A stretch of 64,000 nt of DNA, from positions 262,303,863 through 262,367,862 of the forward strand of contig CP136064.1 in the NCBI GenBank assembly GCA_032622095.1, given 5' to 3'. The stretch comes from Siphonodentalium dalli. Its lineage: Eukaryota; Mollusca; Scaphopoda; Gadilida; Siphonodentaliidae. The position numbers and the translations under genes are program-made. Shown here in pieces: positions 1,031 to 42,040 of the stretch (the first letter of the stretch is position 1; the number at the start of each line of letters is the position of its first letter). The notes beneath the pieces are model-generated. The model saw only the letters and a program-made list of their open reading frames with translations, made no database searches and was not told the origin of the DNA.

Positions 1031-1251
1031 CATTAGTCCACATATAGCTGTAATTTCGGTGCAGGCCGATCCAATAGCATTCTTTATAGAACTCGCTTGA
1101 ATTCGCAGACAAGTCCATACCAGATTCATCTAATATCCAACCGGAACCTTTATCTGAGCATACTCCGATAGAGCTCGTCCAGTTTTTCTTTCCAGAATCA
1201 ACACTAGACTCATTCTGGAACAAAATACACGTGCCATTAATCATCACCAAC
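1031..1251 (-). CDS. C-type lectin domain exon (first half of a CTLD)
   Basis: Seen: a 221-bp open stretch bounded on the minus strand by acceptor TTTATTCTGCAG and donor ATG|GTGAGA, entering in phase 2 and leaving in phase 1. It encodes about 73 residues beginning LVMINGTCILFQ. A Cys lies in the first strand, then a Trp-Thr-Ser/Cys helix region, and then YWIGLHRN. The last of these matches the WIGL signature of C-type lectin domains, and the exon ends at WTNG just before the expected long-loop region. Known: CTLDs are extracellular, about 120 residues long, and bind sugars or proteins. This exon therefore holds roughly the first 60 percent of one. The second-half exon must lie left of the window. 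Several N-x-S/T sites fit an extracellular protein. It is probably the last visible exon of the CTLD/WSC gene, but its phase-2 entry does not match the phase-0 exit of the 6.4k exon. An exon is therefore missing between them, or this is a neighbouring gene. Confidence 0.72.
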
Positions 1252-1559
1252 CTGCAGAATAAATCTCGCGACGTTATGTCCCGATAACATTGTCAGAAGA
1301 GAGTTTTTTTCAGATAAGGTTCTTTCGAATTAAAAAATAGTCTGATCTGAATTGTAATGTCTTTTGATTATGATAAAAACCTTGATCAGATCCCCTTTAC
1401 ATTGTCAATATTTTAAGCTCATAATATTCAGTTAACTAGTTTTTGTGAGAATTGTGAGCTGTAAAAATAACCTGGTAGAGTTTGTCCAGTTTTTGGTAAC
1501 CAGCAGCAATAAATTTACCAATAATGACCACATGGTGTACTTTAAGCGAAACATTTTAT

Positions 1560-2365
1560 TTTGTGACGTCACCAATTATACAGATACTACGAGCCTTTTA
1601 AACTTCAGAAAACGGGATAGAAATGTTGAAAGTTTTAATCGGAAGAGACCAACCAAATCGGTCAACGCACAACCTCTCTTGGACACCATCAACAACCACG
1701 ATCTGCCAAACATTCTCCTATATATGAATATAAAATTCTTCAAATCCTTATGATTGTTTCGAATGATGTGGGAAATTAGAAGGCCTATAAATGTTTTCTA
1801 ACGGTCTCCGGGACCTGGATCAAATTCCCGGATCATTTACGTCGGATGCTACCATGTTTTTACATAACACTCGAAACTTGTTGTATCTATGAAGTATTAA
1901 TGTTCTTGACAAACGGATTATATCCCAAATATATGTTTTTGAAATAAAATAAAATAAATTTGCCGACGTTTACGCCAGAACCCCACAAGCACAGAATAGG
2001 TTAAGCCTTATTTCTATTTTGCTCGGGTGCGAGATACACAAAGATCTATATGTATTTTCTAAAGAATGCACATCACTTTGTCTAACAGAAAATGCTTGTT
2101 TTCGAACTACACCACAAAGACTACATTTAAACAAGAAATTGTTATAAGACTACATATTACACACATGCATATGTGGTAATCCAATGTAATTCATAGACAT
2201 CCTATTATTCTTTAATCGAAAATGAATGGATAGTAATGAAATAAAGTATAAAGATACATTCAGGTGCATGTTAAGTCGGTCGATACAATGAGAATGCTGC
2301 ACGGAGTTCTCCCTAGCGTCACGAACTATAAAGCTTAATTTCAATACAATATTCACCGCTCCCAC
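1560..2365 (-). repeat. interspersed repeat family R1, copy 1
   Basis: Diverged copy of a repeat also found at 23005-23760 (+) and 37680-38400 (-). Shared parts are a GTGACGTCACCAATTAT block at 1562 (carrying TGACGTCA), an ACATTCTCCTATATAT block near 1710, an ATTTCTAACGG/GGATCAAAT block near 1795-1830, and at about 2170-2340 a reading frame resembling CIDRLNMHLNVS..SIHFR. The other copies have TIDRICDNLDVS and TIDRIRVELNVS at the same place. No protein domain is recognised. This is the most decayed of the three copies. Confidence 0.55.
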
Positions 2366-2709
2366 TCAGCAACACAAAACAGTCTTCATATTTTAAATAA
2401 TTAGATGTTGGTAGTTTATAATTATACTAAAATGTACTAATCGAACAGTTTCTTATGATTGATTGGGTTTTGAAACTGCAAGGTAGTTGATCCTATGATT
2501 TTTTTTTACAGTATAAATGTTGGATTTCCCAGATCCGAATACCCATATCTACCTAATTATCACAACATTATGATTTACCTTATGATACGTTATACTGTTA
2601 GTGGACGCCGGCTGGTGTCACTATGTCCACGTCTTCTGTGTCTGATTCCCCGAACTCACCAAATTCAGGCCCTATATTTTAGTCTAGCCAACGCCCGACT
2701 CGTCTGAGA

Positions 2710-3680
2710 ACTTGTCAACCCTAATTTGGTTTGTAATCAAGTCTCACCTCCTGTTCTTTCCAATAATCGTCGAGTCGATTTTTGAAGTGATTTAATGTAT
2801 CGGCTTTGACTATCTCTTCTGCTAGTTGGTTCCAGGGCTTCATAACTCTCTGACTAAAAGTATGTTTTCTTGTGTCTCTGGTTGCCCCTTCTAGAAACAG
2901 TTTGAAGTTGTGGCCTCTGGGTTTGGATTCGGAGTTCTGTGTTAGTATATTTGCTACTTCCGGGTCGTATGTATTGAATATTTTGTAGCATTCTATCATA
3001 TCTCCTCTATGTCGTCTGTACTGCACGGAGGGAATCTTTAGTTTTTCAAGTATGTCTTCATATGGTTAATGTTTTAAAGTAGGAACTAGTTGTGTTGCTC
3101 TGCGTTGGACTTTCTCAAGTTGGGTGATATGTTTGATCAAATATGGCTTTCATGCTGGCTGTGAGTGTTCTAATCTTGGTCGAACCAACCCATTATACAA
3201 CTTTGTCATCATGTCTTCATGCAGATGTGTAAAAGATCTTCTAATCATCCCCATCACGGATTGAACGATCTGTGCTTTTTCATTTATATGCTGTTCGAAA
3301 TTCAAGTTTTTATCTGTGGTGATGCCTATATATTTCTCGCTGTCGACCTTCTCTGTGTAAAGGTTGTTCCATCAACTACTTTCAATGTATAGTTGGGGGT
3401 ATATCCTTCTTTGCCTACATTACACATTTCTCAGGACGAAAACGAAGAAGCCATTTATCAGACCATTGTTGGAGTTCATTCAGATCCTGTTGCAGAATTT
3501 CTATGTCATCTGGTGTTGTTATCTCTCTGAATATCTTGGTATCGTCAGCGTACATCATGACATCAGACTTTGTTGATTTTGGTAAGTCATTTACATAGAT
3601 GACAAATAGGAGGGGTTTAAGTACATTCCCTTGGAATCCCACTGATGACATCATAGAATTTTGATTTCGCCACATTAACG
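2710..3680 (-). mobile_element. LINE fragment: reverse transcriptase, 5'-truncated and frameshifted
   Basis: Seen: minus-strand translation from about 3675 gives PLLFVIYVNDLP, then YADDTKIF (the catalytic YxDD box of a reverse transcriptase), then LQQWSDKW and FRPEKC. A second frame at 3026-2721 gives the C-terminal part, with HRGDMIECYKIF, FSQRVMKPWNQL and FKNRLDDYW. Known: this order (YADD, thumb, then a RGD-Y-K motif and a WN-LP-like motif) is that of Jockey/CR1-type non-LTR retrotransposons. The two blocks are in different frames and the middle (about 3030-3410) has stops, so at least one frameshift has occurred. The usual PQGSVLGP motif has decayed to FQGNVLKP. Endonuclease, fingers and ORF1 are absent, which is normal for 5'-truncated copies. 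Inactive. Confidence 0.9.
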
Positions 3681-5078
3681 ACTTTGGTCAACTGTTTTGA
3701 CGAACCCTTATGTACAGCGTGAACATAATCATAATTACCTCACGAAATAGGGCCTCCGATAATGATAATAATTTACAAGTAGTGATATCTATATGCACAC
3801 ATATGTGACATAGGTAACAATGGCAGATACAGTATATAAAATTATATCAAATCATTTGCAAATGAGGGGCGTGATAGTACCAGTAAGAGTTAACAATCTC
3901 CTTATATATATAGTCGTTATAGTCGTTAATTATAATATGACAATCACACTCACTGTTTGTTAGCCGCACGGGATGTTAGCCAATTGGTTTTCATATAGCA
4001 TACAATAGTCAAACCAAAGTGTCTGTGAAAGGAAACCACACCTTCTGCACACTATAACATGTCACCAAAACATGCTATGTATAACACTGAGCTATGTTTG
4101 CTAATCATTTGCAAACTCGGGCGTGACCGCACCACTATAATGACTAACAACCCCTCTATAGTGATACTTATAAAGCGGTTCACACCCTCGGCCAATTATA
4201 TTGCTTCATTCCATGAACAATATTTCTTGTTTGAATCTGTATTTCGACGGGGTCAACATATAGACTTGAGCTAAAACTCATACCAAAATTGACATTAAGT
4301 CGATAGATAGCTGACAGGCGATCGGACCGGAAGGTGTGAAATTCTAACAATACGTCGTGATAATGATCGCACCAGTCACTCTGGAAGTTAAAACGCGGAT
4401 CATACCATTAGTAGCGGTAATGGAGAGGATGGGCTGCATCTTGGGGGCCCAACACTTTCGACTGAACATTGTTTGGTTTGGCGGGGCTAGTGATTGTAAT
4501 TAAACTGAACGAATTAAAAATATGTTTGGAATGCATAATCCACAATAATCATGCAATAGTCTTTGGTTTGATAACATTGAGGACATTCTGCAGGCTGTTT
4601 AAATATATATGCATGTACGCAGAAAGTCCAAGCAATATAGACAGTTTTGGTTAAGTCTTTTGTCACGAATGCCGGTGGTATTTCATCACAGAGACATTGT
4701 GGAATAGTTTAACTTCGGAGTCAGAACACTACCGGCACATTGCATCCTGGGTTCTGAGCGATAATTCCATTTTGTCAACAAGACGGAAATAACCTTAACA
4801 TTCGAAACAGTTTATTATCACAAGAAATAATCTGTTTTATCAATAAAAAACACGTCGTCAGTATCAAACGTTTTCAAATTCGGAGATAATGTGGTTTATC
4901 AACACTTATAAACAATGCCGATGCAAGCTGGTCAGCGACCATTTAACCATTTAAGGAATATGTAACACCACGAACCATTTAATTAACCTCTATGATTGAA
5001 TTGTAATTGATATGTAATCATCGTATTAAAGTGACTCAATTCCGTTTTCCTCGTGCAGGGCGTGAATCCGTTTATAAA
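3681..5078. other. non-coding, one diverged direct repeat pair
   Basis: No exon or domain recognised. A diverged direct repeat is visible at about 3851-3915 and 4104-4160. Both copies read ATCATTTGCAAA, then a GGGCGTGA block, then TAACAA and a CTCTATA/CTTATATA block. Short open frames (for example 4059-4274) have no recognisable content. Confidence 0.45.
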
Positions 5079-5185
5079 TATGTTATAACCCGCTTGGATA
5101 TCTGTACATGAAAAGCAGCTTCACGCGGCGCTATCGCGCCTTGGTATATTGTTCTTGTACAGATACTCAAGCGGGTTATAACATA
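5079..5185. mobile_element. short MITE with about 30-bp terminal inverted repeats
   Basis: The left end TATGTTATAACCCGCTT is followed by GGATATCTGTACA, and the right end is its near-perfect reverse complement (TGTACAGATACTCAAGCGGG, then TTATAACATA). The arms enclose a GC-rich core at about 5120-5145 (CACGCGGCGCTATCGCG). At 107 bp it is non-coding. The superfamily is not assignable and no target duplication is clear. Confidence 0.75.
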
Positions 5186-5673
5186 TACATCCACGGAAAA
5201 TCTCGTTGACTAAAATTCTATTCAACAATTTCTCAGCCATAGTGTAAGTTTACCACCAAACAACCTTAACCAAAGTGTTGAGTAAACGTCGGATATTAAT
5301 ACTTCTTGAAAGAATTCTCGAAACTGAACTGGATGATATATCCAGAATCAGTGACCGAATTAGAATTGGAAATATTGAGAAATTTGTCAAATTCCCGATA
5401 AAGTATCCGATAATGGTCAGGTGGAAGAAATTAATTATGCCATGGTACAATATGATTGATATGGTTCATATGTCTGGATTGTTTTGGTGCACATGCAATT
5501 AGATCCTGGGTTTCCAAATCTTTGCTCTCCCATGAGGTGATGAAATTATTAATATCAGTCATCTCCTCCTATCTCAATGTTGCATTTATAGAACCAAAAA
5601 TAATGGTAAAACTTAAATTGAACATCACAATATGACAACCATTATAGATGGAGAGTGTTTTAAACTAAGTTAT

Positions 5674-6370
5674 ATTACTCTAGATATTTGCGTCTTTGTG
5701 AACAATATAAAGCGACACTAATCCAAGCCAGGTATGCCGCGTTGTACAAAATCTCCAGGGAGACGAAAATAACTAAGTAATAGTGTGTCTGTCATTTGCA
5801 TAATGAGGTCCCCAGATGGTGAATTTAGTGATGCTACGACGTATATTTTCTATGGATGCATGTTTTTTCGCAATTGTTAGCTTTCTTACTAACAACAATG
5901 ACTATACTTTATACGGGGAAACTCCAACCACGACTATAAGAACGACAAATGTCAAGAATTCAAAGAAAGGAGAGTGATGTCATCTGTAAATGTAGTCGAG
6001 GAGCCAGATATATAACTAATATGCCAACCGTCCAGCAAGTTTTATAAAGAAGCATACAATTTAACAGTTCAGAGTGAATCGAGTAATAGTGTGTCTGTCA
6101 TTTGCAGAATGATGTTCCCAGAGGGTGAATTTAGTGATACTACCCCGCCTCATCAGAATGAGGTTCACAGAGGGTGAATTTGGTGATGCTAGCCCGCTAT
6201 GCGGGGTAGCATCACTAAATTCACCATCTGGGGACCTCATTATGCAAATGACAGACACACTATTACTTAGTTATTTTCGTCTCCCTGGAGATTTTGTACA
6301 ACGCGGCATACCTGGCTTGGATTAGTGTCGCTTTAAATTGTTCACAAAGACGCAAATATCTAGAGTAATA
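5674..6370. mobile_element. long-TIR non-autonomous DNA element with CCCGC(T)ATGCGGG hairpin
   Basis: Arms at 5674-5837 and 6206-6370 are reverse complements over about 164 bp with few differences. Both carry TCTAGATATTTGCGTCTTTG, AATCCAAGCCAGGTATGCCG, TGTCTGTCATTTGCA and the GGTGAATTTAGTGATGCTAC block. A third, shorter copy of the inner block lies at 6085-6155, and AGCCCGCTATGCGGGGTAGC forms a hairpin at 6189-6210. The inner block recurs in the MITE at 38861-39118, so the two elements are related. No coding capacity. It lies immediately downstream (minus sense) of the 6.4k exon, inside the intron of the host gene. Confidence 0.8.
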
Positions 6371-6403
6371 ATTAGACAATTAAACTAATATAATTATATT
6401 AAC

Positions 6404-6573
6404 CTGTGGATCTCCATAGTAATCCTGACTGTAGTCAGAGCACAAAGCTGGCCCTTTAACACCACATGTAGATGCATTCCAATGTATAGATTTCTGATCA
6501 TCAAAGTCAGAAACACATGCACACTTGGCTGCTGCTAACGGTTGACCTTGTCCCCAGCCAACGTATTTTGATG
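6404..6573 (-). CDS. Cys-rich exon of the CTLD/WSC gene (WSC-like)
   Basis: Seen: a 170-bp exon with a strong acceptor (TTGTCTTTGCAG) and donor CCACAG|GTTAAT, phase 1 in and phase 0 out. It encodes about 56 residues: SKYVGWGQGQ, then AAAKCACVSDFDDQ, then NASTCGVKGPALCSD and ending YYGDPQ. The C-x-C followed by two further spaced cysteines resembles the second half of WSC domains, where G..CYC is followed by C...C. It is weaker than the WSC-2 exons and lacks a CGG triad. Its phase-1 entry joins in frame to the phase-1 exit of the 11.6k exon. Known: WSC domains are small extracellular carbohydrate-binding modules. An N-x-S/T site (NAST) fits a secreted or membrane ectodomain. It might instead be a different cysteine-rich fold. 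The exon call is firmer than the domain call. Confidence 0.65.
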
Positions 6574-7540: not shown

Positions 7541-7544
7541 GGGG

Positions 7545-7765
7545 GTTGGGATATTTCACCCCAACTTTTGTCAAATTGTTCAACAGTTCGAAAATTCATG
7601 TACCTAACACGTCAGTTGGACATTTCACACCAAAACTAGGTTGTAATTATTCTGGCAGTTTGATTTTCCAAAATAATTATTAGTGGGGAATTTTTATTAC
7701 TTTTGGACCACATTTGCATATTTCCCTACTTTTGGTAACCTTAGTTTGAAATATCCAGCACATGG
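7545..7765 (+). repeat. interspersed repeat R2, copy 1
   Basis: The same order of motifs occurs at 51860-52150 in the same orientation: GGGGGTTGGGA / CCCCCAACTTT, TCAA.TGTTCAACAGTT, GGACATTTCACACCA, TTATTAGTGGGGAATTT, then an ACCA..ATTTGCA block. Both copies are AT-rich and non-coding. Moderately diverged. Confidence 0.6.
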
Positions 7766-11342: not shown

Positions 11343-11647
11343 ATGTCGGTCCCACAAACATGAATATCACAATGCCCAATATTAACGATATACTTACTGT
11401 TTCATGTCGGTCCTACACACATGGATTTCACAATGCCCAATATTAACGATATACTTACTGTTTCATGTCGGTCCTACAAAAATGGATTTCACAATGCCCA
11501 ATATTAACGATATACTTACTGTTTCATGTCGGTCCTACAAACATGGATTTCACAATGCCCAATATTAACGATATACTTACTGTTTCATGTCGGTCCTACA
11601 AAAATGGATTTCACAATGCCCAATATTAACGATATACTTACTGTTTC
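11343..11647 (-). repeat. 61-bp tandem array, five copies, spanning a splice donor
   Basis: Five units of 61 bp (ATGTCGGTCC...TACTGTTTC) with only a few substitutions. The phase shifts by exactly one base per 60. The unit nearest the exon includes the last six exon bases and the intron start of the WSC exon at 11642-11777. On the minus strand every unit therefore contains GAAACA|GTAAGTATATCG, an identical splice-donor context. Only the exon-proximal donor keeps the protein open. Reading through meets a stop about 65 nt later, at 11577. Confidence 0.95.
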
Positions 11648-11777
11648 GTCTGTATATTGCCAGTGTTTTGTTTTTACCACCACATGATTGACCAGGATCT
11701 CCGGGGCACGGAATGTTGCAGGCTTGTTCATATTCTGGTCTCATATCGAAATCCATATAGCAGTAACAGGACTCTCC
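11642..11777 (-). CDS. WSC domain 2, second-half exon
   Basis: Seen: a 136-bp exon, acceptor TACTATGTCTACATGCAG and donor AAACA|GTAAGTAT, phase 0 in and phase 1 out. It encodes GESCYCYMDFD, then ACNIPCPGDPGQSCGG and KTLAIYRR. CYC, C-x3-C-x-GD-x-Q-x-CGG and a closing IYR are the hallmark second half of a WSC domain. Joined in phase 0 to the exon at 15124-15245 (ending FIGLQ) it gives a complete, canonical WSC domain of about 85 residues. Known: WSC domains occur in fungal wall sensors, polycystin-type receptors and many invertebrate secreted lectins, and are thought to bind polysaccharide. The open frame continues upstream to about 11875 without a stop, so an earlier acceptor (CATACAAG or AATGCAG) is possible. 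The phase-0 acceptor is chosen because it restores the domain exactly. Confidence 0.85.
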
Positions 11778-15123: not shown

Positions 15124-15245
15124 CTGGAGACCGATGAAGGGATAAGACCCACACCTCATCTGGCATTTCTGCAGGGAATTGTCATATATAGTAAAGTTTG
15201 CATCGTCGACGATGTAACAGCCTTGATAAGGGTCACTTCCGCCGT
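15124..15245 (-). CDS. WSC domain 2, first-half exon
   Basis: Seen: a 122-bp exon with acceptor TTTCAAATCTACAG and donor CTCCAG|GTAGGT, phase 1 in and phase 0 out. It encodes GGSDPYQGCYIVDD, then an N-glycosylation site (NFT), then LQKCQMRCGSYPFIGLQ. Y-x-GCY, C-x3-C and the closing Y-x-F-x-G(L/V)-x pattern are the first half of a WSC domain. The exon at 11642-11777 completes it in frame, giving six or more well-placed cysteines. The phase-1 entry fits the phase-1 exit of the 22.4k exon. The extracellular carbohydrate-binding role is inferred from the family. Confidence 0.87.
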
Positions 15246-17933: not shown

Positions 17934-19255
17934 TCTATATATTTTGAGACTTCGTATATATATATGTATGTATGTACTTCATAGAATCCAAAACGCGTGT
18001 ACAGATTGAGCTCAAACTTCCTATGTAAGTGTCAAAATTCACCGACACGACCGTGGTCGCAGTTTAGAAAAGCTCAGAGCACCCGTTCTCCAATCTCAAA
18101 TCACCGCAAAGGCACGGCGTGGGTTAATCAAGTGATTATTTAATGAGCGTTTGTTTTTGACGCATCTCTATAAAGAGCGTCTGTTTGCCATTCAACGCTA
18201 TTTGCATCTGCAGAGAGATATACGGAACATACATTAAATTTAAAAAACATTTGTTTCTGACCAACCCTGCGAGCACGGATGGCGCGCTTTGTTTTTACAG
18301 TATATAGTTATATACCGAAATCATCCAAGATAATCACGAATATAGCATCAGATTTCTCCCCAGATATACCGTTATAAAAAGCTACTGGAATCTGCCAATC
18401 TACGGGAAATTCCAGGGAATGCCGATTGAGCTCAAACTTGCTACCCACGGGAAGTGTCATATATATGAGTGTGTCCTTTATAGACTCGAACCGATTGAGC
18501 TCAAACTTGCTAAATAAGAAAATAGACCCCAAGCCGTAAATATCAACAACAACGATATTGCTACCTACGGGGAGCAACGTTATTAGCATCTGCAGAATTA
18601 TGCAGAGAGAAAATGCTTTCCTATTTTTAGAACGCAACACATGTTTACGTCGCGTTGGTGATTGAGGTTCACAACGGGGTTAATTGACTGTCCGCTCTTT
18701 GCGACGATGAGGTTCACGGCGGGGACTATTGACCAACACTCACAATTTCGTCTTTTGCATCAGATACCAACACCTCGACCGATCGGGACGAAACTTGGTA
18801 CGTGAGTGTAGTTTGACCAGGTGGTCGTCGCTGTCGTATTGGCGAGCCCGTGCGACGCCCGTGCAGCGCATGCACAGACGAGATATCGGAAACGGGTGGA
18901 GCTATCGACTTGAAATTTGGTATGTGAATGTATCTTGCGCCGGGTACAAATTTTATCGGGTCGCCGAGCCCGTGCGACGCCCGTGCAGCGCATGCGCAGA
19001 CGAGATCTCGGAAACGGGTGGAGCTATCGACTTGAAATTTGCTATGTGAATGTATCTTGCGCCGGGTACAAATTTTATCGGGTCGCCGAGTCCGTGCGAC
19101 GCCAGCTTCGCGCATGCGCAGACCAGATCTCGGAAACGGGTGGAGCTACCGGGTACAAATTTTTCTTATTGAAACGCGTGGAGCTAAAAATTAAAAAAAA
19201 ATATTAAAAAATGTCATGTTTCGGACAAGCCGCCGGTGGCGGGCTAACCTGCTAG
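17934..19255 (+). mobile_element. non-autonomous Helitron-like element, tandem copy 1
   Basis: Starts with TC (TCTATATATTTTGAGACTTC) after an A and ends GCCGCCGGTGGCGGGCTAACCTG + CTAG before a T. An imperfect hairpin (AGCCGCC / GGCGGGCT) lies about 6 bp before the CTAG. These are the terminal features of Helitrons (5' TC, 3' hairpin plus CTRR, A|T target). The 1322-bp body contains a 122-bp internal tandem repeat (starts 18844, 18966 and 19088, each with GAGCCCGTGCGACGCC and GAAACGGGTGGAGCTA). It also has repeated ATTGAGCTCAAACTTGCTA motifs. Open frames in both strands (for example 18726-19115) come from these repeats and match no domain. No Rep/helicase is encoded. Copy 2 follows with no spacer. 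Confidence 0.83.
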
Positions 19256-20591
19256 TCTATACTATATATTTTGAGACTTCGTATATATATATGTATGTAT
19301 GTACTTCATAGAATCCAAAACGCGTGCACATATTGAGCTCAAACTTCCTATGTAAGTGTCAAAAAACACCGACACGACCGTGGTCGCGGTTTAGAAAAGC
19401 TCAGAGCACCCGTTCTCCAATCTCAAATCACCGCAAAGGCACGGCGTGGGTTAATCAAGTGATTATTTAATGAGCGTTTGTTTTTGACGCATCTCTATAA
19501 AGAGCGTCTGTTTGCCATTCAACGTTATTTGCATCTGCAGAGAGATATACGGAACATACATTAAATTTAAAAAACATTTGTTTCTGACCAACCCTGCGAG
19601 CACGGATGGCGCGCTTTGTTTTTACAGTATATAGTTATATACCGAAATCATCCCAGATAATCACGAATATAGCATCAGATTTCTCCCCAGATATACCATT
19701 ATAAAGCTACTGGAATCTGCCAATCTACTGAATCTACGGGAAATTCCAGGGAATGCCGATTGAGCTCAAACTTGCTACCCACGGGACGTGTCATATATAT
19801 GAGTGTGTCCTTTATAGACTCGAACCGATTGAGCTCAAACTTGCTAAATAAGAAAATAGCCCCCAAGCCGTAAATATCAACAACAACGATATTGCTACCT
19901 ACGGGGAGCAACGTTATTAGCATCTGCAGAATTATGCAGAGAGAAAGTGCTTTCCTATTTTTAGAACGCAACACATGTATACGTCGCGTTGGTGATTGAG
20001 GTTCACAACGGGGTTAATTGACTGTCCGCTCTTTGCGACGATGAGGTTCACGGCGGGGACTATTGACCAACACTCACCATTTCGTCTTTTGCATCAGATA
20101 CCAACACCTCGACCGATCGGGACGAAACTTGGTACGTGAGTGTAGTTTGACCAGGTGGTCGTCGCTGTCGTATTGGCGAGCCCGTGCGACGCCCGTGCAG
20201 CGCATGCGCAGACGAGATATCGGAAACGGGTGGAGCTATCGACTTGAAATTTGGTATGTGAATGTATCTTGCGCCGGGTATAAATTTTATCGGGTCGCCG
20301 AGCCCGTGCGACGCCCGTGCAGCGCATGCGCAGACGAGATCTAGGAAACGGGTGGAGCTATCGACTTGAAATTTGCTATGTGAATGTATCTTGCGCCGGG
20401 TACAAATTTTATCGGGTCGCCGAGTCCGTGCGACGCCAGCTTCGCGCATGCGCAGACCAGATCACGGAAACGGGTGGAGCTACCGGGTACAAATTTTTCT
20501 TATTGAAACGCGTGGAGCTAAAAATTAAAAAAAAATATATAAAAAAATGTCATGTTTCGGACAAGCCGCCGGTGGCGGGCTAACCTGCTAG
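19256..20591 (+). mobile_element. non-autonomous Helitron-like element, tandem copy 2
   Basis: Begins with TC immediately after the CTAG of copy 1 and ends in its own CTAG at 20588-20591, followed by T. The two 1.3-kb copies are nearly identical. Differences include a 5-bp ACTAT insertion near the 5' end and 9 extra bases (ACTGAATCT-like) near 19728. There are scattered substitutions such as CACAGACG versus CGCAGACG. Head-to-tail joining end to end fits rolling-circle replication past a missed terminator, or repeated insertion at the same spot. Assembly duplication is less likely, because the copies differ. Confidence 0.83.
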
Positions 20592-22382: not shown

Positions 22383-22497
22383 CACTTTTAGTCAATAAGA
22401 CTGTATATTCATTGTTGCCTGAAACATCACATCGTGTTCCTCGGAACATCGGTTTAATATTGTGTGCGTCTGGACAAACACACTTCTCTCGTCCACT
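22383..22497 (-). CDS. WSC domain 1, second-half exon
   Basis: Seen: a 115-bp exon, acceptor TTTATTTCAACAG and donor AAAAGTG|GTGAGTAT, phase 0 in and phase 1 out. It encodes SGREKCVCPDAHN, then FRGTRCDVSGNNEYTVLL. C-x-C after a G..K, a later Cys and a closing Y-x-V stretch are the layout of a WSC second half, shorter than usual and lacking the C...CGG part. It joins in frame (phase 0) to the exon at 40808-40938, which ends YTYIGIK. That gives YIGIK followed by SGREKCVC, matching the Y-x-G-x-x-x-G-x-x-C-x-C core. It then leads in phase 1 into WSC domain 2. The intron between the two halves would be 18.3 kb. Confidence 0.65.
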
Positions 22498-24184: not shown

Positions 24185-26323
24185 ATAAAAGCCGAACACA
24201 ACCGAACATAACCGAACACAAGTCCAAATAATGGGAAATTTCACGAATAAAGTTCATAGGCATATGTATTCATGTTCACACTATTACTATACGAACTTTG
24301 GTGGAGTTCGGGCCAATAATAAGTGTTTTATTCGATATTTTGTAAAACGCGTTTAGTGTTCGGCATAGAAAAGCCGAACACAAGTTTATGTTCGACACTC
24401 AGTCACCGGTAATTAATTAACACATAGATATGCATAGATGTGGCAAAATTTAGCTGGCGTTTGAGATATATAACTCTATATACAGTCTACTAAATATAAG
24501 ACCACCTTGTAAAGTTCATAGGCATATGTATTCACGTTCATACTATTACTATACGAAGTTTGGTGGAGTTTGGTTCAATAATGAGTGTTTTGTTGGGTGT
24601 TTTGTATAACGCGTTTGTGTTTGGCATAGAAAAGCCGAACACAAACTTCTGTCTCATGGATTACATTATCCGCTGATAGGTGATCATTAATATCTGCCAG
24701 AAGGGATTTGGCAGGTTTAATTCGCGAGAAAAAACGTGTTTTGTTGTCCATTTTCGTCTGCATTCTCACTAAAATGTTACCCCCCCCCCGTTATTATTAC
24801 AATTCATTTCGTACAATGTGGTAGTTTAGATGGATCATACTGGACAAATGCGAACATATCAGCACGCCCCGGACTTCTAAGAAGTAGTAAATCGGTTGTC
24901 GAGTTAAGATACTCATGCGGAAATGGTTCGGAGAATATAATACTAACCACAAAACAAATAGTGTATTGCAATCATAAGTAAACATTGTAAAATTATATAT
25001 AATAGTGTTCTTGTTGGCGACATAACATCTCTTGGTGATGGTGCAGGGAATTCTGGTGGAATTGATGTCAATCATAGTATATGTACTATACAATATACTA
25101 TACAATATACTTATATGCAAATTCTGTCCTCGGCGGAACGGATTTGGGCAGAGTTTGTTCTCCTTGAAGTCAGGGGATGGAAATGGCTCTGATGCGTGCC
25201 TAACTTTTGTGTATATATCATGCTGTATGGTGGAAGCCGATATAAAGCCAGCGTTCAACTTATCGTAGAAACACATGCATCGAATACCGATTGAATTGAA
25301 ATGAATTGTCGGAATACGAATAAAGAGCGTTTCGTATTGTATCTTTTTAAAAGTCTGATATACAGGAATTTAAGATCGTTTTCAAAAATGTGCCTGATAT
25401 GACAGGAATGTGATATGAAAGGAATAATTATTTTGCGCCAAGATACCTTTTGACGCTTGCTAGGGTTGATTGATCTAGTTTTGCATGCCTTTACTCTTTT
25501 AGTCTGACATGGCTTCTTGGCAATAGCCGCGGTTTTCGGTATCGTCAAACGTCCGTCAGTCGAAATTTGCCGAAGATTCTGGCATAAATTAAATTGGTCA
25601 CCAAGCGATGACTTAGTAAAAAGTCATTGATTTTCAATTGCTGGCACTCTACATGAAACCATCGGTCACACATATCGCAGCCGATGCTGCGTATCTCGTG
25701 ACATTCCTGCGAACAAACACCACATGGGTAAATCAATTTGGAATTAGGCATTGTAGAATTTTCAGACCTGTGATCAGAATGCCAAATACTGCTGAGATTG
25801 TGATTTGCCAAATAATATCATACCACATTCTTATATAGAACTTCTCGGATATTGCACCATGAACTCACTTTCTTGTCACTCAAATATTGTTTTTACAATC
25901 GTACGTTGTCTTTCATGGCGGGGCCCACCAAAAGCATGTTGTTTCTATAATAGTAGGCGCCATCAAATACTGATTGCAACTAACTGTCAAAACACTGAAC
26001 TACAATAGGTGAGAGACCAACAACAATTAAAGCCTTTCGGCTTAGTGACCATATATCTGATATTAATTATCACCTAGCTAGACAGCCGTTATAGACTAAT
26101 CCACGAGAGAAGCTTGTGTTCGGCTTTTCTATGCCGAACACTGAACGCGTTTTACAAAATCTCGAATAAAACACTTATTATTGGCCCGAACTCCACCAAA
26201 CTTCGTATATTAATAGTGTGAACATGAATACACACGCCTATGAACTTTATTCGTTATATTTCCCATTATTTGGACTTGTGTTCGGTTATGTTCGGTTGTG
26301 TTCGGTTGTGTTCGGCTTTTATA
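24185..26323. mobile_element. 2.1-kb element with ~200-bp inverted ends (GCCGAACACAA)
   Basis: The left arm at 24185-24384 and right arm at 26113-26323 are reverse complements. Both carry tandem AACCGAACATAACCGAACACA, AGTCCAAATAATGGGAAAT, AAAGTTCATAGGC, TTTGGTGGAGTTCGGGCCAA and GTTCGGCATAGAAAAGCCGA. A further direct copy of the arm, more diverged, lies at 24503-24650. The interior carries a PHD-finger fragment on the minus strand at 25545-25811. The arms look like TIRs of a DNA element, but no DDE motif or clear target duplication was found. Confidence 0.68.
25545..25811 (-). pseudogene. PHD-finger fragment inside a TIR element
   Basis: Seen: an ATG-initiated 88-codon frame containing YPCGVCSQE, then IGCDMCDRWFHVECQQL. 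C-x2-C, C-D-x-C, W-F-H-x2-C is the first two-thirds of a PHD-type zinc finger. The final C-x2-C pair is missing because the frame runs into unrelated sequence. A neighbouring frame (25548-25255, -) has a Lys/Arg-rich segment (KKPCQTKRVKACKTR) that could be the displaced continuation. Known: PHD fingers of this style occur in nuclear chromatin readers and also in transposon-encoded proteins of marine invertebrates. Position between inverted arms favours a transposon origin. Probably dead. Confidence 0.65.
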
Positions 26324-35487: not shown

Positions 35488-37679
35488 GTAGTACCCTGTA
35501 CGGAACATCCTATAATTATTGTAATATTGAATTTAATATCAACTTGGTGGTTGCTCCATTACGTGTCACGTACGATCATATTACTGAAGACCTGAGCTCA
35601 CAACCGAAGGACTTCCCGAGACATTATTATGGCACTATCTACAATATAAATGCAAACACCGTGGGTACATTAGTTTACATCGCATTTCAATTGTCAAATA
35701 GTCGGTGTTGGAATTTCAAGGATTGATAAGACGAACCAAAAACACATTAATGGATATAATAACACAGTGGATCAATTTATCAATATATATCTCATTGAGA
35801 TCTAGCAACAAACTATTGAGATGGAATGGTCAAATGTGCTTATGATGAATAGATATCATAGACTGATATTTAAAACAACTGTTAAGGACCAGACGAACGT
35901 TTTGCATAAATCAAGGCAAAATTGAATGAGATCTTAAACAAATAACTTATATGGATTTATCTGGTGAAAAATATAGACTTTCACCTATCCTCATCTTTGT
36001 AAATAAAATCTTAGCAAACATAAAGAAGAAAAAACACAATCGAGTTCAATACACTTACATGTTTAAAGTATTGACCCTTTATGTTAAAAGAACTGCTGAA
36101 CTAATTAATAATTTAACATAACAATCCGATCACCAAATATCTTATTTTCTTCACTCTATCAAAGGAAGCTTCTTTTGTGTCGTAATACTGGGTTGATGTT
36201 TAAAGTGCATTTTATAACGTCATAGCCCAAATACATGACAATGAAGAATAAAGCAGTCACCAATATTTCAACTCAATGAAAACAACTGTTGGTATCAGGC
36301 CTAGTGCACTCCAACAGGAAGATATCAACTGAAAATAAGCCACATAAAATTAGATATACCTGCTCAGCTTGATATTAGGAATCGGACATGTGAGCCCAGT
36401 TATATTGAACAACAATCCAAGCCAATCCAATTAACTTATCGCTAAATGTTTTCCTCAAATAGTTGAATTATATATACCAATGTGAGAAGTGTACCGCACG
36501 ATGCCAATCGAAACCAGAAGAATTTTCGAAAAACTGGTTCCTTTTAGAAAACGCTTTTCATGTACACACGAGTCAACACCAATCAACTTGAGTGTCCTGG
36601 AAATTATTTCTTCACCAATTCGAAAACTCACGTAGTTAATATACCCGGAAATACGATACCCCCCCCCCGCCAATATCACAATTCCGTCTATGGTTAGATG
36701 TCGTACCGATACGCCGTACACAGGACAAAAGTTCAAGGATCTAAAATCTAAATTAATATATAAAAATGAACATATATTCAATTTATTCAATTTTTCATGT
36801 CAGTCACTGGGAGTGCATATGGTGTACGAAAGACGTGTAAATGAAGTGCGCGAGATGTGAGCGAATTGGAAGAATGTCACTTGATATATAAGTATGTGTA
36901 CAGTGTACCTCTGTTTATATTTTCATTCCTTCATTGATGTATGTTTATTCAAATAAAAACAATAATAATATTGAACAACAGGATTGATTTGCCATTTCTC
37001 AAACACAGAACATTATCTCTCTTTCCAAGTGAAAATAATTATGAAAAACCTTAAATCAAGGAATATATAGTTCAACTAAATCTCCTCTCGTGACCTTCAG
37101 ATATGAAATCATGGATACATCAACTGCACAGTTGAAAAAGTTATATCTTACAAAAAGTTCTTGGTACCGGAAAATAGCGAAATTTGAGTTTATAGTATAA
37201 AAGTATAGTAAATGTGGTTATAATTTCCAACGAGTGGACGCTTCTGAAATATTGGGTCACAACAATCGCTTGTACCAACTTCTAAATGAACTTTCCGATA
37301 GGTTTGAGAAAATCGATGTTGAATTATCAGGAACAGTTGGCAATACGTGGCGAAACGTCAGCTCAATCAAGAAAGCGCCTTTGGTTGTCTTGCTATAACC
37401 AATACAAATATAATTTTAAATAGTTTATAATGGCACGGTATTTCTTTACAAACAAATATTATGTTCAGTAAAAATTTGCTTAATCCACTAGAAAATTACA
37501 ATCGAAGAAAAAGATCACTGATTGGCTGGTAAGTAAATATGTTAGATTGACCTATACCATGTCCAGAGTGCAGTAAGGGCCATACGTACATTTCACAAAC
37601 TTCCTTGCAAGAAATGCAAGACATTATCAATGAAGAATTGGTATGGATCTATACTATGAAAACTCAAAATATCACATAT
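35488..37679. other. long non-coding stretch, nothing firm
   Basis: Open frames at 35544-35726 (+) and 36790-36455 (-) have no recognisable domain. A C9 run occurs at 36660-36668. GGCAATACGTGGCGAAACGTCAGCTC near 37340 looks like ordinary unique sequence. All lies within the 18-kb intron proposed between the two WSC-1 half exons. Confidence 0.4.
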
Positions 37680-38400
37680 CGTAATAACGAACCAAAGCCG
37701 GACGCTTTTGGTCGTATATAGACCATATCTGATTTTGTGACGTCACCAATTATTAACTATTACAACGCTGTTGTTTTTGAATTTCGGGAGCGCGAATGTC
37801 GCCAGTAGATCGGTGGGCTTAAAGCATTAATGTCGTAATCGGCTGTCAAGAGGCCAACCCAAATCAGTCGACGTGCAACATTCTCCTATTTATATAAACG
37901 TCAGAAAAGGGAAAGTAGGTCCATAATGAATTTCTAACGGGTCTACTCCGGCACTCTACTGGATCAAATCATCGGACCCTAGGAAATTTTTAATATTTTT
38001 TTAAATAAACAAAAATCACCACAACTCAACACGATATACGTGTATCTCAAGCTGTATTTTCCAACTGACGCACATCAGTTGATAAATACTGCATCAGTCT
38101 GCATGGTTCTGTAGAGACTATACCGTGCGAAAGGAAATAAGATAACGTTTAATATGGATTTGATTGTTATGATAAGTCTGCATACTTACATCGATCTGAT
38201 AATCCATATATATCCTATTTTCTTGAATAGAATGAAAACACATACTTATGAACAAAACAGAAGATACATTCAGTTCCACGCGAATTCGGTCAATGGTGAA
38301 AGTTACACGATGGCGTTGTTTGTCTTGTAGACTATCGTTGAAATCGATATGAAATGAACATTCTGAGTATCTGAAGCGGAGAGCCCCCCAGTACCCCAAG
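37680..38400 (-). repeat. interspersed repeat R1, copy 3
   Basis: Minus-strand order matches the 23.0k copy. A frame with QRHRVTFTIDRIRVELNVS and LFISMCFHSIQE lies at about 38330-38220. Then come TTTCTAACGG/GATCAAAT blocks, AAGCCCACCGATCTACTGG at about 37815-37800, GGTGACGTCACAAAATCAGA at 37746-37727 and GACCAAAAGCGTCCGGCTTTG near 37715-37690. TGACGTCA is at 37738-37745. Confidence 0.7.
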
Positions 38401-38860
38401 TAATATAATGGTTAGTTTCAGTTCCATACACTCTCGACAACATATATAACTATTTATAATTACCCCACCAAACATAAGCCTTATACATGTGAATCTTATT
38501 TGGTGGGAATCTATAAAGCGATTTTGACAAGAATTGTTTTAAACGCTACATACAGAAACCCATATGTGATTGTTTTAGCTTTGGTTCGTTAATTAGGCTT
38601 GTGTATGATCACATTTTAGCATATGAAAAGCAAGAGAAGACAAAACTAATGATTTTTAATACGTCTGGGAGGTTAGATATATTATTGTTTTGCTCGTTAG
38701 GTTCCAACACAGTTCCTAGAATATTTGATCATTTCACAAAATAAGCAAATCGTCAAATATCTTATATTCGTGTGTCTATGACAGATTGGGAACTTAATTT
38801 GTATCATAATGCGGAGTTAAAATTGTAGTTACATGATATATCACGTTCCTATGAATTACA

Positions 38861-39118
38861 ATCAAGCCTTGAAATAAGGTGTCTGTCATTTGCAGCATGA
38901 GGTCCCCAGAGGGTGAATTTAGTGATGTTACCCCGCATAGCGGGCTAATATCACCAAATGCACCCTCTGGGGACCTCATTCTGCTTACACCTCAGCAGAA
39001 TGAGGTTCCCAGAGGGTAAATTTGGTGATGATAGCCCGCTATGCGGGGTAGCATCACTAAATTCACCCTCTGGGGACCTCATTCTGCAAATGACAGACAC
39101 CCTATTTCAAGGCTTGAT
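38861..39118. mobile_element. snapback MITE with CCCGC-ATAGC-GGG hairpins
   Basis: Almost palindromic over 258 bp. It runs ATCAAGCCTTGAAATAAGGT, GTCTGTCATTTGCAGCATGA, GGTCCCCAGAGGGTGAATTT, then CCCCGCATAGCGGGCTAAT. All of these return inverted, to end ACACCCTATTTCAAGGCTTG + AT. Each half itself contains a nested inverted pair (GAGGTCCCCAGAGGGT / ACCCTCTGGGGACCTC). TACA lies directly outside both ends and may be the target duplication. The inner block is shared with the larger element at 5674-6370. Confidence 0.85.
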
Positions 39119-39613
39119 TACAACGAAGAACAAATCACCTCACATGTGTCAGGCCAGTGAACAAAACTGTGTATTTGCTGTCATTCTCAAATCAAGCAGA
39201 GAAATCAACTGTTAGATATGCAAGTAATGTGGTCAGCTGGGGTCTGACCATGGACATGTAAGATTTAGCTCACCTCAACCCAATTGTTCATCGACCAACA
39301 TGCATGACAGGACAATTCTCAGATAATAATGTATGGGTATTTGCTTTCTAGATGAAAATAATTATCATTGTTTTTAATCAAGTTTCATCACATGATCTTC
39401 AGATAGGATGTCGTAGATATATCAACTTCACTCGTGAAAGAATGCTATTTTGTACATAGTATTGGTCTGAAGACAGTGACATGTTAAGGAATGTTCGAAA
39501 GTTGGCTTATAAGTGGTGTCAATGTATGTATAGTTCTTAAAGTTTATGTCACATTAATCATATATTTATGTACCATATTTCAGAAAGAAAAAAACACATT
39601 GTGAGAAAATTCG

Positions 39614-39915
39614 TTATGAAATATCAAGAATTAGACGTCTTGAATTGAGGTCGCTTGTCTCGTTACCAAGATCGCCGTATAGTCTTCCAAAACGTAAATC
39701 AATCCTCACTACTTCGCGCATGCTTAATATATGGTTCATCGCCGTGATAATATAGCACGCTTCCTGATTATTCTCGTATAGAAAACAATCTATTATATTG
39801 CACTTATTGTTACGTGTCCGTACTATACATGTCAAATGCAGAGCACTCAAAATATATACGGACAACGTTAACAGAAAGCAGATACTAACAACCACACAAC
39901 CCAATGTAATTTGAG
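39614..39915 (-). CDS. open frame with a membrane segment, possible exon
   Basis: Seen: a minus-strand frame of about 99 residues, open from a CAGTAG position at about 39916 to TAA at 39614. It lacks an ATG at its start, so if real it is an exon (acceptor ...TTCAGTAG, weak). It begins with about 27 hydrophobic residues (GCVVVSICFLLTLSVYILSA), then RTRNNK, then a tail with CNIIDCFLYENNQEAC and RFGRLYGDLGNET. A single membrane span followed by basic residues and a polar tail could be the membrane anchor of an alternative isoform of the neighbouring lectin-like gene. Its phase-0 entry would fit the phase-0 exit of the 40.8k exon. No family is recognised, and it may be chance. Confidence 0.22.
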
Positions 39916-40138
39916 TCTACTGAACTGTCGCGGTCTCTGCTCATCAGCTAATTGTTGGTAGACATAGAACTTGACATTCGCGCAATTGATATGCTTTTCA
40001 CTTAATCAAGGAAAATTCCTTATCTTATGATCAAAGTTGATTTTCTAATAAAATAATATTATATTAGTAAACAGTGTAAAAAGATTTGCGCGTGGTAGTT
40101 CTTCTTCTTTAGAAACACCCCATAGTTTACACCCTTAC

Positions 40139-40276
40139 CAGGATTACACACTGATGGTGTGGGCTGGCATATGAACCATTTGCGAGAACTGTTCCGAATT
40201 CGGCAAATTTGAAGCCAAGTGTGGCTTGTCTGCTCTTCATATTCACTACAAACAACATCGCCCTTCACCAGCACCC
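40139..40276 (-). CDS. Cys-rich exon, CTLD second-half-like
   Basis: Seen: a 138-bp open stretch with acceptor CCTAAGGAACAG (weak pyrimidine tract) and donor AATCCTG|GTAAGG, phase 1 in and phase 1 out. It encodes VLVKGDVVCSEYEEQTSH, TWLQICRIRNSS and RKWFICQPTPSVCNP. C...C...(W)FIC is how C-type lectin domains end (Cys, Cys, FICE). The phase-1 entry would join the CTLD first-half exon at 41855-42040 directly, restoring a compact CTLD. However the WSC-1 first-half exon (40808-40938) lies between them and exits in phase 0. This exon can only be used together with skipping both WSC-1 exons, or it is a relic. The domain call rests on cysteine spacing and FIC only. Confidence 0.45.
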
Positions 40277-40807
40277 CTGTTCCTTAGGACAAATTTTACC
40301 GACATCCGAACCATTCTGGAATGCTTGATGCCATCGGGGCAGGCCAACCGTGGGACAAAACTTGCCAAAATCCGAACCTCGGAAATGGTCTAGAGCAGGT
40401 CCTACTATCAGGGTTGCCCTATTCGGTTGGGTTGAAAGTTGGCGAAGTTATATTGGGTATTTGGGGCGGGCCACCAAAAATTGGCTGAAAGAATCGTTCT
40501 TTCGAATAAGGCGTAACGAACCAGGACTAGGTTCCAAAAGTGAGTCATATTTCCAACTGATGTTACAGCAGACATGAAGTTCCATGTGCTGAAACACTTT
40601 TTCAACATATTGACACTACTTGAAATGAAACTGTGAAGTAAATAGCTGTACATTTTCTTCACAGCATCGCTTTGCTTTACCAACATGAAGTTTGAGTGGG
40701 ACACTCAGACCCCCAAGTGTCATGTCACCATATCCCTGTCCATGTTTGAAAAGATGAAGAAACTACACGTGATGTATTTGTCGAAGTCAGTGTGTATGTG
40801 CACTCAC
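40277..40807. other. intron between candidate exons, unassigned repeat-like ORFs
   Basis: Open frames on both strands (40350-40577 +, 40704-40408 -) have no recognisable domain. The left part (40290-40480) is relatively GC-rich and contains a repeated GGACAAA(A/T)(C/T)TT..CC(G/A)A(A/C)ATCCGAACC motif at 40289 and 40353. No better exon was found here to complete the CTLD or WSC. Confidence 0.4.
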
Positions 40808-40938
40808 CTTGATGCCTATATATGTATAATTAGTACAATTACTTTCGCATGTTCCCAAACTCTTCGTATCGTAGACTGGAAGTGGTTTGAGTACCTTCTC
40901 GGTAAAGCAGCCAACTCGATCGTACAATTTGCTCTTGT
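40808..40938 (-). CDS. WSC domain 1, first-half exon
   Basis: Seen: a 131-bp exon with a strong acceptor (CTTTGTTTTCAG) and donor ATCAAG|GTGAGT, phase 1 in and phase 0 out. It encodes KSKLYDRVGCFTEK, then VYDTKSLGTCESNC, an N-glycosylation site (NYT) and YTYIGIK. Y-x3-GC(F/Y), C-x3-C and Y-x-Y-x-G(I/L)-x match the first half of a WSC domain. It has the same exon borders and phases as the WSC-2 first-half exon at 15124-15245, so the two modules share a gene architecture. The matching phase-0 second half is the exon at 22383-22497. The entry phase fits the exit of the CTLD exon at 41855-42040. Very probably part of one extracellular, sugar-binding multi-domain protein. Confidence 0.8.
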
Positions 40939-41246
40939 CTGAAAACAAAGAAGGATAAACTGGTATAACCGATAGAGCATACATATGACATCGAAGATAA
41001 TATGTTGTTTGTGAGTGGTTACATGATAGTTTCCTATGGGCGAGCGAACACAAACCAAACAATAGAGAGCATCTTGCATGGTACTGTCTTCATACAAACA
41101 ATAATATTAAAAATAACAGGCTACGGGCGCTTTTATACCTATGTGGCAATGCTATTGTAATAAATTTAAGTCCATTATGAGTATTCAGATGTATTAGTAT
41201 AGCATAATATACCAATAACACGATTTTTGAAGGCGTTAAGGTTTAC

Positions 41247-41338
41247 TAACGGCCCGGCAGGAATGACTAACAGCCCGATACGCAGTCGAGGGCCGCTAAT
41301 ATGCCCGAGGGCTGTTGATCATTCCTGGAGGGCCGTTA
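41247..41338. repeat. GC-rich imperfect palindrome
   Basis: TAACGGCCCGGCAGGAATGA + CTAACAGCCC faces GGGCTGTTGATCATTCCTGG + AGGGCCGTTA, with CGAGGGCC(G)C pieces in the loop. It is 92 bp, far richer in G+C than its surroundings, and is followed by a less regular GC-rich stretch to about 41545. MITE-like; class unknown. Confidence 0.7.
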
Positions 41339-41854
41339 ATAAACCAGGACGTCGGACAAAATCATGTTATTACTATTATTACCACTCCGTCCGATCACGT
41401 GATCGATGACTTAACCGGAAGCGGGCGGCGGGCGTTAAGGAAAACAAAGCTTCATCACTCGGCAAGCCTCATCAGATTCCGTTACCGTTGGTCCTAGAGG
41501 TCATAGGTCGAGGAATCCAGAATGAAACCTTCACTAACGCCGGCCGTCCGCTACCGGTCAACTTCGCCTCAAAATTATGGAATCTTATTGTGCGGGTAAA
41601 ATACTGTTAATATACTAGAGAACGCCCTCTAAAGTGGTAATAATATATAACTTCGACCTGACGCAGGAATGAAGCGAATTAAGCTAATATGAAAAATCGC
41701 ACGGTACAATTAATGCGCGCATCCACTCAGCCATTTCTTCCACGAGTTGATGACCGTGTCGCGGGAACACAACAATGTTATCGAGCGCGAGATCACGTAT
41801 GTGTGGCAATGCGATTTTACTGTGAGTATCTCTTATGACACTGTGGACACTCAC

Positions 41855-42040
41855 CACTCCGCCATTCCCAGCCAGTGTTGTTCTTAAGTCCTCCGATCCA
41901 CGCGGAGTCTCCGTCGGCCAGTGTCCGCGCCGCGTGCATCATCTCATGTTCAGTCGGAAGGGCGGCTAATCTTCCTCCTTTGTCGTGACATGTTCTGTTG
42001 GCAACAATCCACGCGGCTTCAGTGTCATACAAGAGCTGTC
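41855..42040 (-). CDS. C-type lectin domain exon (first half of a CTLD)
   Basis: Seen: a 186-bp exon with acceptor TCTTTTAAATACAG and donor GGAGTG|GTGAGTGT, phase 1 in and phase 1 out. It encodes LLYDTEAAWIVANRTCHDKG, then GRLAALPTEHEMMHAARTL, then DSAWIGGLKNNTGWEWRSG. A-x3-C-x3-GG-x-LA-x(L/I)-x-x-x-x-E followed by WIGG(L)...W-x-W is the textbook first two-thirds of a C-type lectin domain (helix 1, loop, WIGL strand). An N-glycosylation site (NRT) is present. The leading Cys and signal peptide must lie in upstream exons to the right, not recognised in this window. It ends at the same structural position (W-x-x-G) as the CTLD exon at 1031-1251. This conserved intron position supports common origin of the two lectin modules. 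Confidence 0.85.

Follow-up and report, generated by a model that had tools for sequence, protein, structure and literature searches.

Members of the mannose-receptor family are membrane receptors with a Cysteine-rich domain, an FN2 domain, and eight or more C-type lectin domains (CTLDs). In polycystin-1 and sea urchin REJ, WSC domains and CTLDs occur in one protein, as they do in hPKD1 according to the available portions of two reports (PMC1934368, PMC9672506). Polycystin-1/REJ proteins additionally have the domains PKD, REJ, GPS, and PLAT, with as many as 11 membrane segments. In this study, a 64,000-nucleotide stretch from the scaphopod mollusc Siphonodentalium dalli (C4:262303863-262367862, hereafter the window) was analysed together with a gene on its minus strand, here called W. 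Unlike the mannose-receptor family, W has two CTLDs, no Pfam match to the Cysteine-rich or FN2 domain, and a pair of WSC domains coded inside the first CTLD (CTLDa); none of the additional polycystin-1/REJ domains was matched. Overall, it is probable that W is a 12-exon gene for a type I receptor with the WSC pair nested in CTLDa, and that the family to which it belongs works as paired receptors.

The whole genome (2.23 Gb in nine contigs) was searched, and coordinates are those of the window unless marked C4, C9, or another contig. Related genes were found at nine further loci, lettered B to J, and at a divergent eleventh, K. Seven core exons of W were taken from minus-strand open frames with AG/GT borders, and the remaining exons were located through the paralogous loci; the signal peptide and the membrane helix were recognised by eye rather than by a predictor. 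The twelve exons span 69,836 bp on the minus strand, from window position 60829 to about 9 kb left of the window, and splice through 11 junctions to 1,941 nt, or 646 residues, with the final TAA as the only stop. In the product, the order is signal peptide, CTLDa first half, WSC1, WSC2, CTLDa second half, a second lectin domain (CTLDb), short stalk, membrane helix, and tyrosine-rich tail. The features of W are as follows.

60757..60829, minus strand: exon 1, start codon and signal peptide MAGTIITLLFANSILCGVWIYADT, phase 0>1, identified by eye and by paralogue comparison
57254..57331, minus strand: degenerate second copy of the signal-peptide exon, similar in its first part only and then divergent
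41855..42040, minus strand: exon 2, CTLDa first half (CTLDa1), phase 1>1, Lectin_C 25.7 bits alone
40808..40938, minus strand: exon 3, WSC1 first half (WSC1a), phase 1>0
22383..22497, minus strand: exon 4, WSC1 second half (WSC1b), divergent, phase 0>1
15124..15245, minus strand: exon 5, WSC2 first half (WSC2a), phase 1>0
11642..11777, minus strand: exon 6, WSC2 second half (WSC2b), phase 0>1
6404..6573, minus strand: exon 7, CTLDa second half (CTLDa2), Cys-rich, phase 1>0
1031..1214, minus strand: exon 8, CTLDb first half (CTLDb1), phase 0>1
C4:262302281-262302129, minus strand: exon 9, CTLDb second half (CTLDb2)
C4:262300342-262300271, minus strand: exon 10, stalk
C4:262297645-262297525, minus strand: exon 11, transmembrane
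C4:262295333-262294856, minus strand: exon 12, class I tail

The predicted coding order places two WSC domains inside a CTLD, so that the modules do not form a simple string. When CTLDa1 is joined exactly to CTLDa2, the product scores 40.6 bits against Lectin_C (cut-off 22.6) and covers profile positions 4-106 of 107, compared with 25.7 bits for CTLDa1 alone and no Pfam match at E<=1 for CTLDa2 alone. Control joins of CTLDa1 with a reversed second half and with the second half of WSC1 reached 26.4 and 27.1 bits, respectively, and a whole-domain match of CTLDa was obtained only with the WSC exons left out. CTLDa1 ends in phase 1 and CTLDa2 begins in phase 1, so that the direct join is in frame. 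The joined CTLDa matches Lectin_C at E<=0.01 in 10 of the 11 loci. Its four canonical cysteines (C18, C80, C99, and C107), one before and three after the WSC exons, are invariant in 11/11, as are the Trp and Cys landmarks on either side of the junction. A profile of the joined CTLDa matched 86 distinct sequences with solved structures at E<=0.001, with receptors of the mannose-receptor family at the top (PLA2R1, DEC-205/LY75, MRC1, and the yolk sac IgY receptor; first match PLA2R1, 42.0 bits, i-E 7.8e-10), and it aligns to the single, solved CTLDs through the junction with a gap of a few residues only. No other CTLD half was found in the CTLDa1-WSC1a and WSC2b-CTLDa2 introns of W, B, C, and F, where two antisense CTLD matches (7 residues in C, 27 aligned residues in F) were discounted; in B, these two introns are just 614 and 517 bp long.

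The break in CTLDa falls between the WIGL-like and the EPN-like positions, from which we infer a long-loop location for the WSC pair. The canonical motifs of calcium site II were found in none of the CTLDa copies (EPN/QPD 0/11, WND 0/11), and W has QPL and WNA. Therefore, the usual calcium-dependent sugar binding by CTLDa is unlikely.

CTLDb of W (window gene only) scores 28.2 Lectin_C bits over profile 2-107, and its first exon is taken to begin at acceptor 1214 in phase 0, since paralogue C has an in-frame TAG just upstream, within the pyrimidine tract. Together, the exons probably form one gene of about 70 kb for a cell-surface receptor. The original prediction, made from the window alone, had described a minus-strand gene of more than 41 kb with eight candidate exons and module borders in phase 1. 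The single gene and its strand stand, and its extent has grown to about 70 kb; seven of the exons were recovered, whereas the eighth had been given no listing, and most borders are in phase 1, although that between CTLDa2 and CTLDb1 is in phase 0. The claimed CTLD first half is present at 42040-41855 and WSC-1 in the exons 40938-40808 and 22497-22383, all on the minus strand with AG/GT borders; WSC-2 is read, just as stated, from 15245-15124 joined to 11777-11642, and both WSC modules are indeed coded by a phase 1>0 exon followed by a phase 0>1 exon. The second CTLD first half, ending at 1031, is likewise an exon with its acceptor now set at 1214, and the further Cys-rich module (6573-6404) remains an exon with a new identity, the second half of CTLDa. 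Membership in a single gene, which had been deduced from strand and phase, gains support from the exon order and strand at ten loci and the divergent eleventh and from the stop-free 646-residue frame. The signal-peptide exon (60829-60757) had been overlooked, the four exons left of the window were out of view, and a family with two tail classes in tandem and dispersed positions lay beyond what the window alone could show.

A gene of the polycystin-1/REJ type, a known family with WSC and CTLD, was also considered, as hPKD1 carries both domains in the consulted parts of the sources cited above (PMC1934368, PMC9672506). In the 646-residue product, however, PKD, REJ, GPS, and PLAT gave no match at E<=1 and a single membrane helix was seen by eye. 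This identity was rejected on the domain content of the W product and is highly improbable.

Spliced WSC2 of W scores 38.2 bits against PF01822 (cut-off 27.8), and WSC2 is matched at E<=0.01 at 10/10 loci; against solved structures, the WSC2 profile gave no match at E<=0.01. The exon split and phases of WSC1 are the same as those of WSC2, with six cysteines in most WSC1 copies versus eight in WSC2. A Pfam comparison of the raw open frames gave a hit for only 2 of the 7 (Lectin_C 25.7 bits; WSC 27.6, marginally under its cut-off). After splicing, WSC2 (38.2), CTLDb (28.2), and joined CTLDa (40.6) were all recognised, but WSC1 (22.3) stayed below the cut-off. The shared split of the WSC domain had been regarded as a design of this gene; it is present in both modules, yet it is probably no trait of this gene alone, with 141 of 150 scored genome-wide WSC matches starting at profile positions 28-39 (counted by eye). 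An intron inside WSC is probably general in this genome and not peculiar to W, a view that the count fits without proving it.

Exon-by-exon searches of the whole genome returned the seven core exons, always in one order, from ten loci. In nine of these (W, B, C, D, E, F, G, H, and J), the full set of seven runs along one strand in a constant order. At locus I only the first six are grouped; one has to go 368 kb downstream on that strand to reach the nearest CTLDb1, CTLDb2, and class I tail. Modelling yielded open exons bordered by AG/GT and in the phases of W for 70/70, with stop-free chains at 10/10 loci; the exon finder was given these phases, so that the result shows that fitting exons exist and not that other phases would fail. 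A signal-peptide-like exon is found upstream on the same strand at 10/10 loci, the weakest match being E 0.06 at B, where the exon was read directly; that of C lies outside the modelled stretch and was taken from the search for signal-peptide exons. The CTLDb second-half exon is present at the ten loci. Stalk exons were modelled in C and F but not counted, and B yielded no such model. Comparing close paralogues in six raw frames did not help to find exons, as their introns are conserved as well.

At the divergent locus K (C4:289098-289116k), which shares 30% identity with W over the joined CTLDa, the order of the six nested exons is unchanged, as are their phases, and the splice sites are good. 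Similarity identified its CTLDa halves and WSC2b, and the remaining WSC halves were picked out of Cys-rich open frames, mainly by eye. As the same six-exon arrangement occurs in so divergent a gene, the nested arrangement seems to predate the ten-gene family. Damaged or partial relatives were not counted as loci (C3:62792k, with stops; C4:254967k, with a stop; C3:66001-66008k, first-half fragments only).

Selective constraint was estimated on the seven exons as the ratio of nonsynonymous to synonymous differences (pN/pS) over five pairs picked before the tree was made (W-D, B-C, E-G, F-H, and I-J). I and J are not close, the CTLDb1 of I is the unlinked one, and the Fisher test assumes independent sites and is a guide only. 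Overall pN/pS was 0.52 (p 9e-20), and by module it was 0.34 for WSC2, 0.47 for CTLDa1, 0.47 for CTLDb1, 0.56 for CTLDa2, and 0.84 for WSC1; the two WSC domains together gave 0.55 (p 1e-9). Pooled pairwise substitution ratios (dN/dS) over all pairs were 0.25 for WSC2, 0.42 for CTLDa2, 0.45 for CTLDa1, 0.54 for CTLDb1, and 0.65 for WSC1, and within the group of recent copies (W, B, C, and D) WSC1 reached 1.00. By these estimates all modules except WSC1 are constrained, and WSC1 is relaxed or fast-evolving.

These data bear on two further explanations. The exons might be unlinked relics or pseudogene fragments, in a genome that is rich in WSC exons and damaged relatives and with transposon fragments in the introns of W; with the open frame, the phases, the selective constraint, and the exon order kept at ten loci all opposed to it, this is barely conceivable. 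Alternatively, the WSC modules may be alternative cassettes, the main protein having an uninterrupted CTLDa and WSC1 and/or WSC2 being included in some cells or life stages, which would change the binding face. Each is a symmetric (phase 1-1) module situated between the CTLDa halves at every one of the ten loci, and the in-frame direct join gives a full Lectin_C match. However, WSC exons with open frames and splice sites were modelled at 10/10 loci, and WSC2 is the most constrained module (dN/dS 0.25). Therefore, WSC2 is very likely translated in some product, from which constitutive inclusion does not follow, and we regard the cassette explanation as unlikely. The nested receptor is preferred, and its intracellular part is considered next.

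Two classes of last exon are found in the family. Class I tails occur at six loci (W, D, E, F, J, and I, where the tail is the distant one), with a further broken copy at C4:254949k, and class II tails occur at four (B, C, G, and H). Loss of the tail in B, C, G, and H had been considered and was withdrawn once the class II tails were found. In class I, seven tyrosines, mostly behind acidic residues, are invariant in 6/6, with motifs of the form acidic-Y-x-x-V/L/I such as YETV/YGTV and YDxL, and YGHI in 5/6; the alignment and the tail dN/dS of this class were made without B and C, in which the exon finder had taken unrelated short frames. The last exon of B and C is entered, as in class I, in phase 2 after a W-like transmembrane exon, and its first residues are similar to class I, followed by unrelated sequence; the tail of B and C contains 18-residue repeats with YINL, YINQ, or YVNQ. 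The class II exons of G and H lie downstream of CTLDb2 on the right strand; that of H was aligned over its first 96 residues, up to a frame break.

Another class II tail, with 13 YIN motifs in an open frame of 388 residues, lies at C1:81531600-81533300, on a chromosome other than that of the class II receptor loci, and is perhaps part of another receptor gene. Interrupted class II tail copies are present upstream of locus I (C4:255472800-255478800, L073), with four near-identical 100-residue open frames among them that are probably a tandem repeat; these interrupted tails near C4:255473-255478k were not used.

The tails were read for consensus patterns, namely the immunoreceptor tyrosine-based inhibition motif (ITIM), the corresponding activation motif (ITAM), and YxN. 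A YxxL-x10-YxxL pair ends the class II tails of B, C, G, and the C1 copy, that is, 4/4 open tails examined, of which the C1 copy is tied to no receptor gene, and it is kept between class II tails that are just 44-47% alike. YxN motifs number 5 in B, 5 in C, and 13 in the C1 copy, values reached by 0, 1, and 0 of 1000 shuffles, respectively; the 2 motifs of G were reached by 219/1000.

The two classes are mixed over one ectodomain family. In the tree of the seven ectodomain exons, the clades E+G, F+H, and W+D+B+C each have 100/100 support and each contain both tail classes, and a single clade for class II is rejected (approximately unbiased test, p 1.2e-44). The tree needs four class changes, at least three of them forced by starred branches; shuffled labels do no worse (mean 3.3-3.4). 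Between clades, class I tails are 57-70% identical and their ectodomains 52-61%. For class II, tail identities are 60% for G-H (95 residues), 47% for B-G, 44% for C-G, 44% for C-H, and 38% for B-H (39 residues), with ectodomains at 55-62%. The divergence of same-class tails from clade to clade is thus about that of the ectodomains, and both classes therefore seem older than the clades. Across classes within a clade, ectodomains are 74-83% identical.

At the DNA level, with blocks of less than 120 bases not counted and one out-of-order W/C block ignored in the W/B/C comparison, W and C remain similar beyond the transmembrane exon and lose their similarity within the last intron, about 0.7 kb short of the W tail. 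W/B similarity stops in this intron as well, the two class II genes B and C are alike through the tail and about 2 kb further, and E/G similarity is lost about 2.6 kb before the E tail. As read from these alignments, the mixing is either repeated last-exon exchange or ectodomain gene conversion between old pairs. In W, B, C, and F, a transmembrane exon was modelled that links similar ectodomains to different tail classes; elsewhere the link is one of position. Such a predicted layout is the anatomy of paired receptors.

The tails also allow an explanation with no paired signalling, in which classes I and II are adhesion or endocytic subfamilies with trafficking tails that arose by ordinary duplication and a few last-exon replacements. 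YxxPhi motifs double as endocytic signals, and class I is without ITAM and nearly without the ITIM pattern. Against it stand the excess of YxN over shuffles in B, C, and the C1 copy, the fixed-spacing YxxL pair in 4/4 open class II tails, and the apparent age of both classes, which seem older than the clades and yet have cross-class ectodomains 74-83% alike within a clade. It appears rather unlikely, if less so than the cassettes.

Under the preferred reading, that of a nested paired receptor, W would be a type I membrane receptor in which the long-loop region of CTLDa holds two tandem WSC domains, followed by a second CTLD, a short Ser/Thr-rich stalk, and one helix. The nested ectodomain would bind a ligand, probably not through canonical calcium-dependent sugar binding; clustering would let kinases phosphorylate the tail tyrosines, and SH2 proteins would be recruited. 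Class I tails such as that of W may be inhibitory or scaffolding, and class II tails, with YIN repeats in some and YxxL-x10-YxxL, activating, so that related ectodomains on both tails would make the family act as paired receptors. The sign of each class is a guess, inhibitory for class I because its motifs resemble amphioxus DDYATV/HDYSEV, and activating for class II because of the ITAM-like pair. The gene model, nested coding order, conservation, and the two tail classes shared across clades were computed, and from these we infer translation as a nested protein, ligand binding, the activating class, and pairing. Tentatively, it is possible, with somewhat less than an even chance, that this is a paired-receptor system of its own with at least ten loci, in which the nested CTLD/WSC unit stands on an inhibitory-type or an activating, ITAM-like/YIN-repeat tail, repeated gene conversion or exchange of last exons has preserved the likeness of ectodomains on opposite tails, and splicing can include or omit the phase-1 WSC cassettes and so change the binding face.

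Several findings weigh against a nested paired receptor. On the nested sequence, the Lectin_C match covers the first half only (28.8 bits), and the WSC modules, as symmetric 1-1 cassettes, could be skipped singly or together in frame. WSC1 of W (22.3 bits) is below the PF01822 cut-off with a match at E<=0.01 in 3/10 loci, and its constraint alone is not significant (0.84, p 0.12; about 1.0 in recent copies). The second half of the locus I gene, tail included, is about 370 kb from the first half. Transmembrane exons are modelled only in W, B, C, and F, and none turned up when the 3' stretches of E and G were searched by pattern; the tails of E, G, and H were thus attributed from their position and strand, and in the assembly the class II tail of H shifts frame after 96 residues. 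The ITAM-like pattern was reached in 73-134 of 1000 shuffles per tail, which leaves its conservation as the support. ITAM is present in 0/6 and the ITIM pattern in 1/6 class I tails, with seven ITIM-pattern matches in the four class II tails (B 3, C 2, G 1, C1 copy 1); the class signs could therefore be reversed.

Some further features of these loci were noted. At C4:262293863-262613590, W (minus, class I) and B (plus, class II) lie head to head in a four-gene cluster; after B come C (class II) and D (class I), which are likewise on the plus strand. Locus J (C9:210226948-210247984) has its CTLDa1, WSC1a, and WSC1b exons twice, with copies 11,031-11,037 bp apart, which would be a recent tandem duplication or an assembly duplicate. 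Gene F has two adjoining transmembrane-exon copies (C4:297218592-297218930), the second with an in-frame stop, and W has a second stalk exon copy at C4:262300022 (window about -3840) that has lost its donor site. In the long introns of W, matches to a FLYWCH zinc finger (46427-46765, plus strand, 43.8 bits), a reverse transcriptase (55030-55641, plus strand, 48.4), a weak BED finger (50640-50960, plus strand, 17.7, below cut-off), and a PHD finger (25548-25817, minus strand, 26.6) are perhaps transposon remains. Within the WSC1b-WSC2a intron, at about 18601-20461, repeated open frames reveal a duplication, with two almost identical copies at a distance of about 1.3 kb.

In the literature searched, mostly titles and abstract openings with most subscription papers outside its coverage, no WSC domain inside a CTLD was found. 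In a sponge survey, WSC is one of the domains named in a figure on pattern-recognition receptors, CTLD genes being among these receptors (PMC8242945), and in a 2026 survey of domain insertions a term search of the main text available returned no mention of lectins or WSC (PMC13114784). An insertion into the loop that usually sets C-type lectin binding would be a direct route to a new binding face, and the nested coding order is kept in eleven loci, one of them divergent. Even if this were only an adhesion family, the nested architecture alone would still be an unusual protein layout.

WSC has been described in another membrane receptor, amphioxus BbLcLRR. Its tail has the motifs DDYATV and HDYSEV, similar to EEYETV and DDYGHI of the present family, and it was inhibitory in a Jurkat assay; in the portion of that report available, it has leucine-rich repeats (LRRs) with WSC between LRR and LRR-CT, and no CTLD is mentioned (PMC8211107). 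The Botryllus fester co-receptors, alongside which Hydractinia allorecognition genes are mentioned, are invertebrate multigene type I receptors with ITIM, hemITAM, or YxxI/L/V tails, as described in the accessible part of the source (PMC12065747). Their ectodomains have Ig and sushi domains, whereas those described here have CTLD and WSC. Two tail classes over one ectodomain family would place paired receptors, best known from vertebrate immunity, in an invertebrate lectin family, and would make it testable whether such pairs arise independently wherever duplicated receptors read pathogens or self-ligands. Vertebrate paired receptors, such as CEACAM1/CEACAM3-like and Siglec-11/-16, have similar ectodomains on different tyrosine-based tails and are kept alike by gene conversion or recombination, according to the consulted sections of three papers (PMC2832619, PMC5112662, PMC5701461). 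Theirs are Ig-type ectodomains, while the present family has a predicted nested CTLD/WSC unit and no clear ITIM in class I. As in the vertebrate pairs, the clades here mix tail classes, and similarity between their members breaks off before the last exon.

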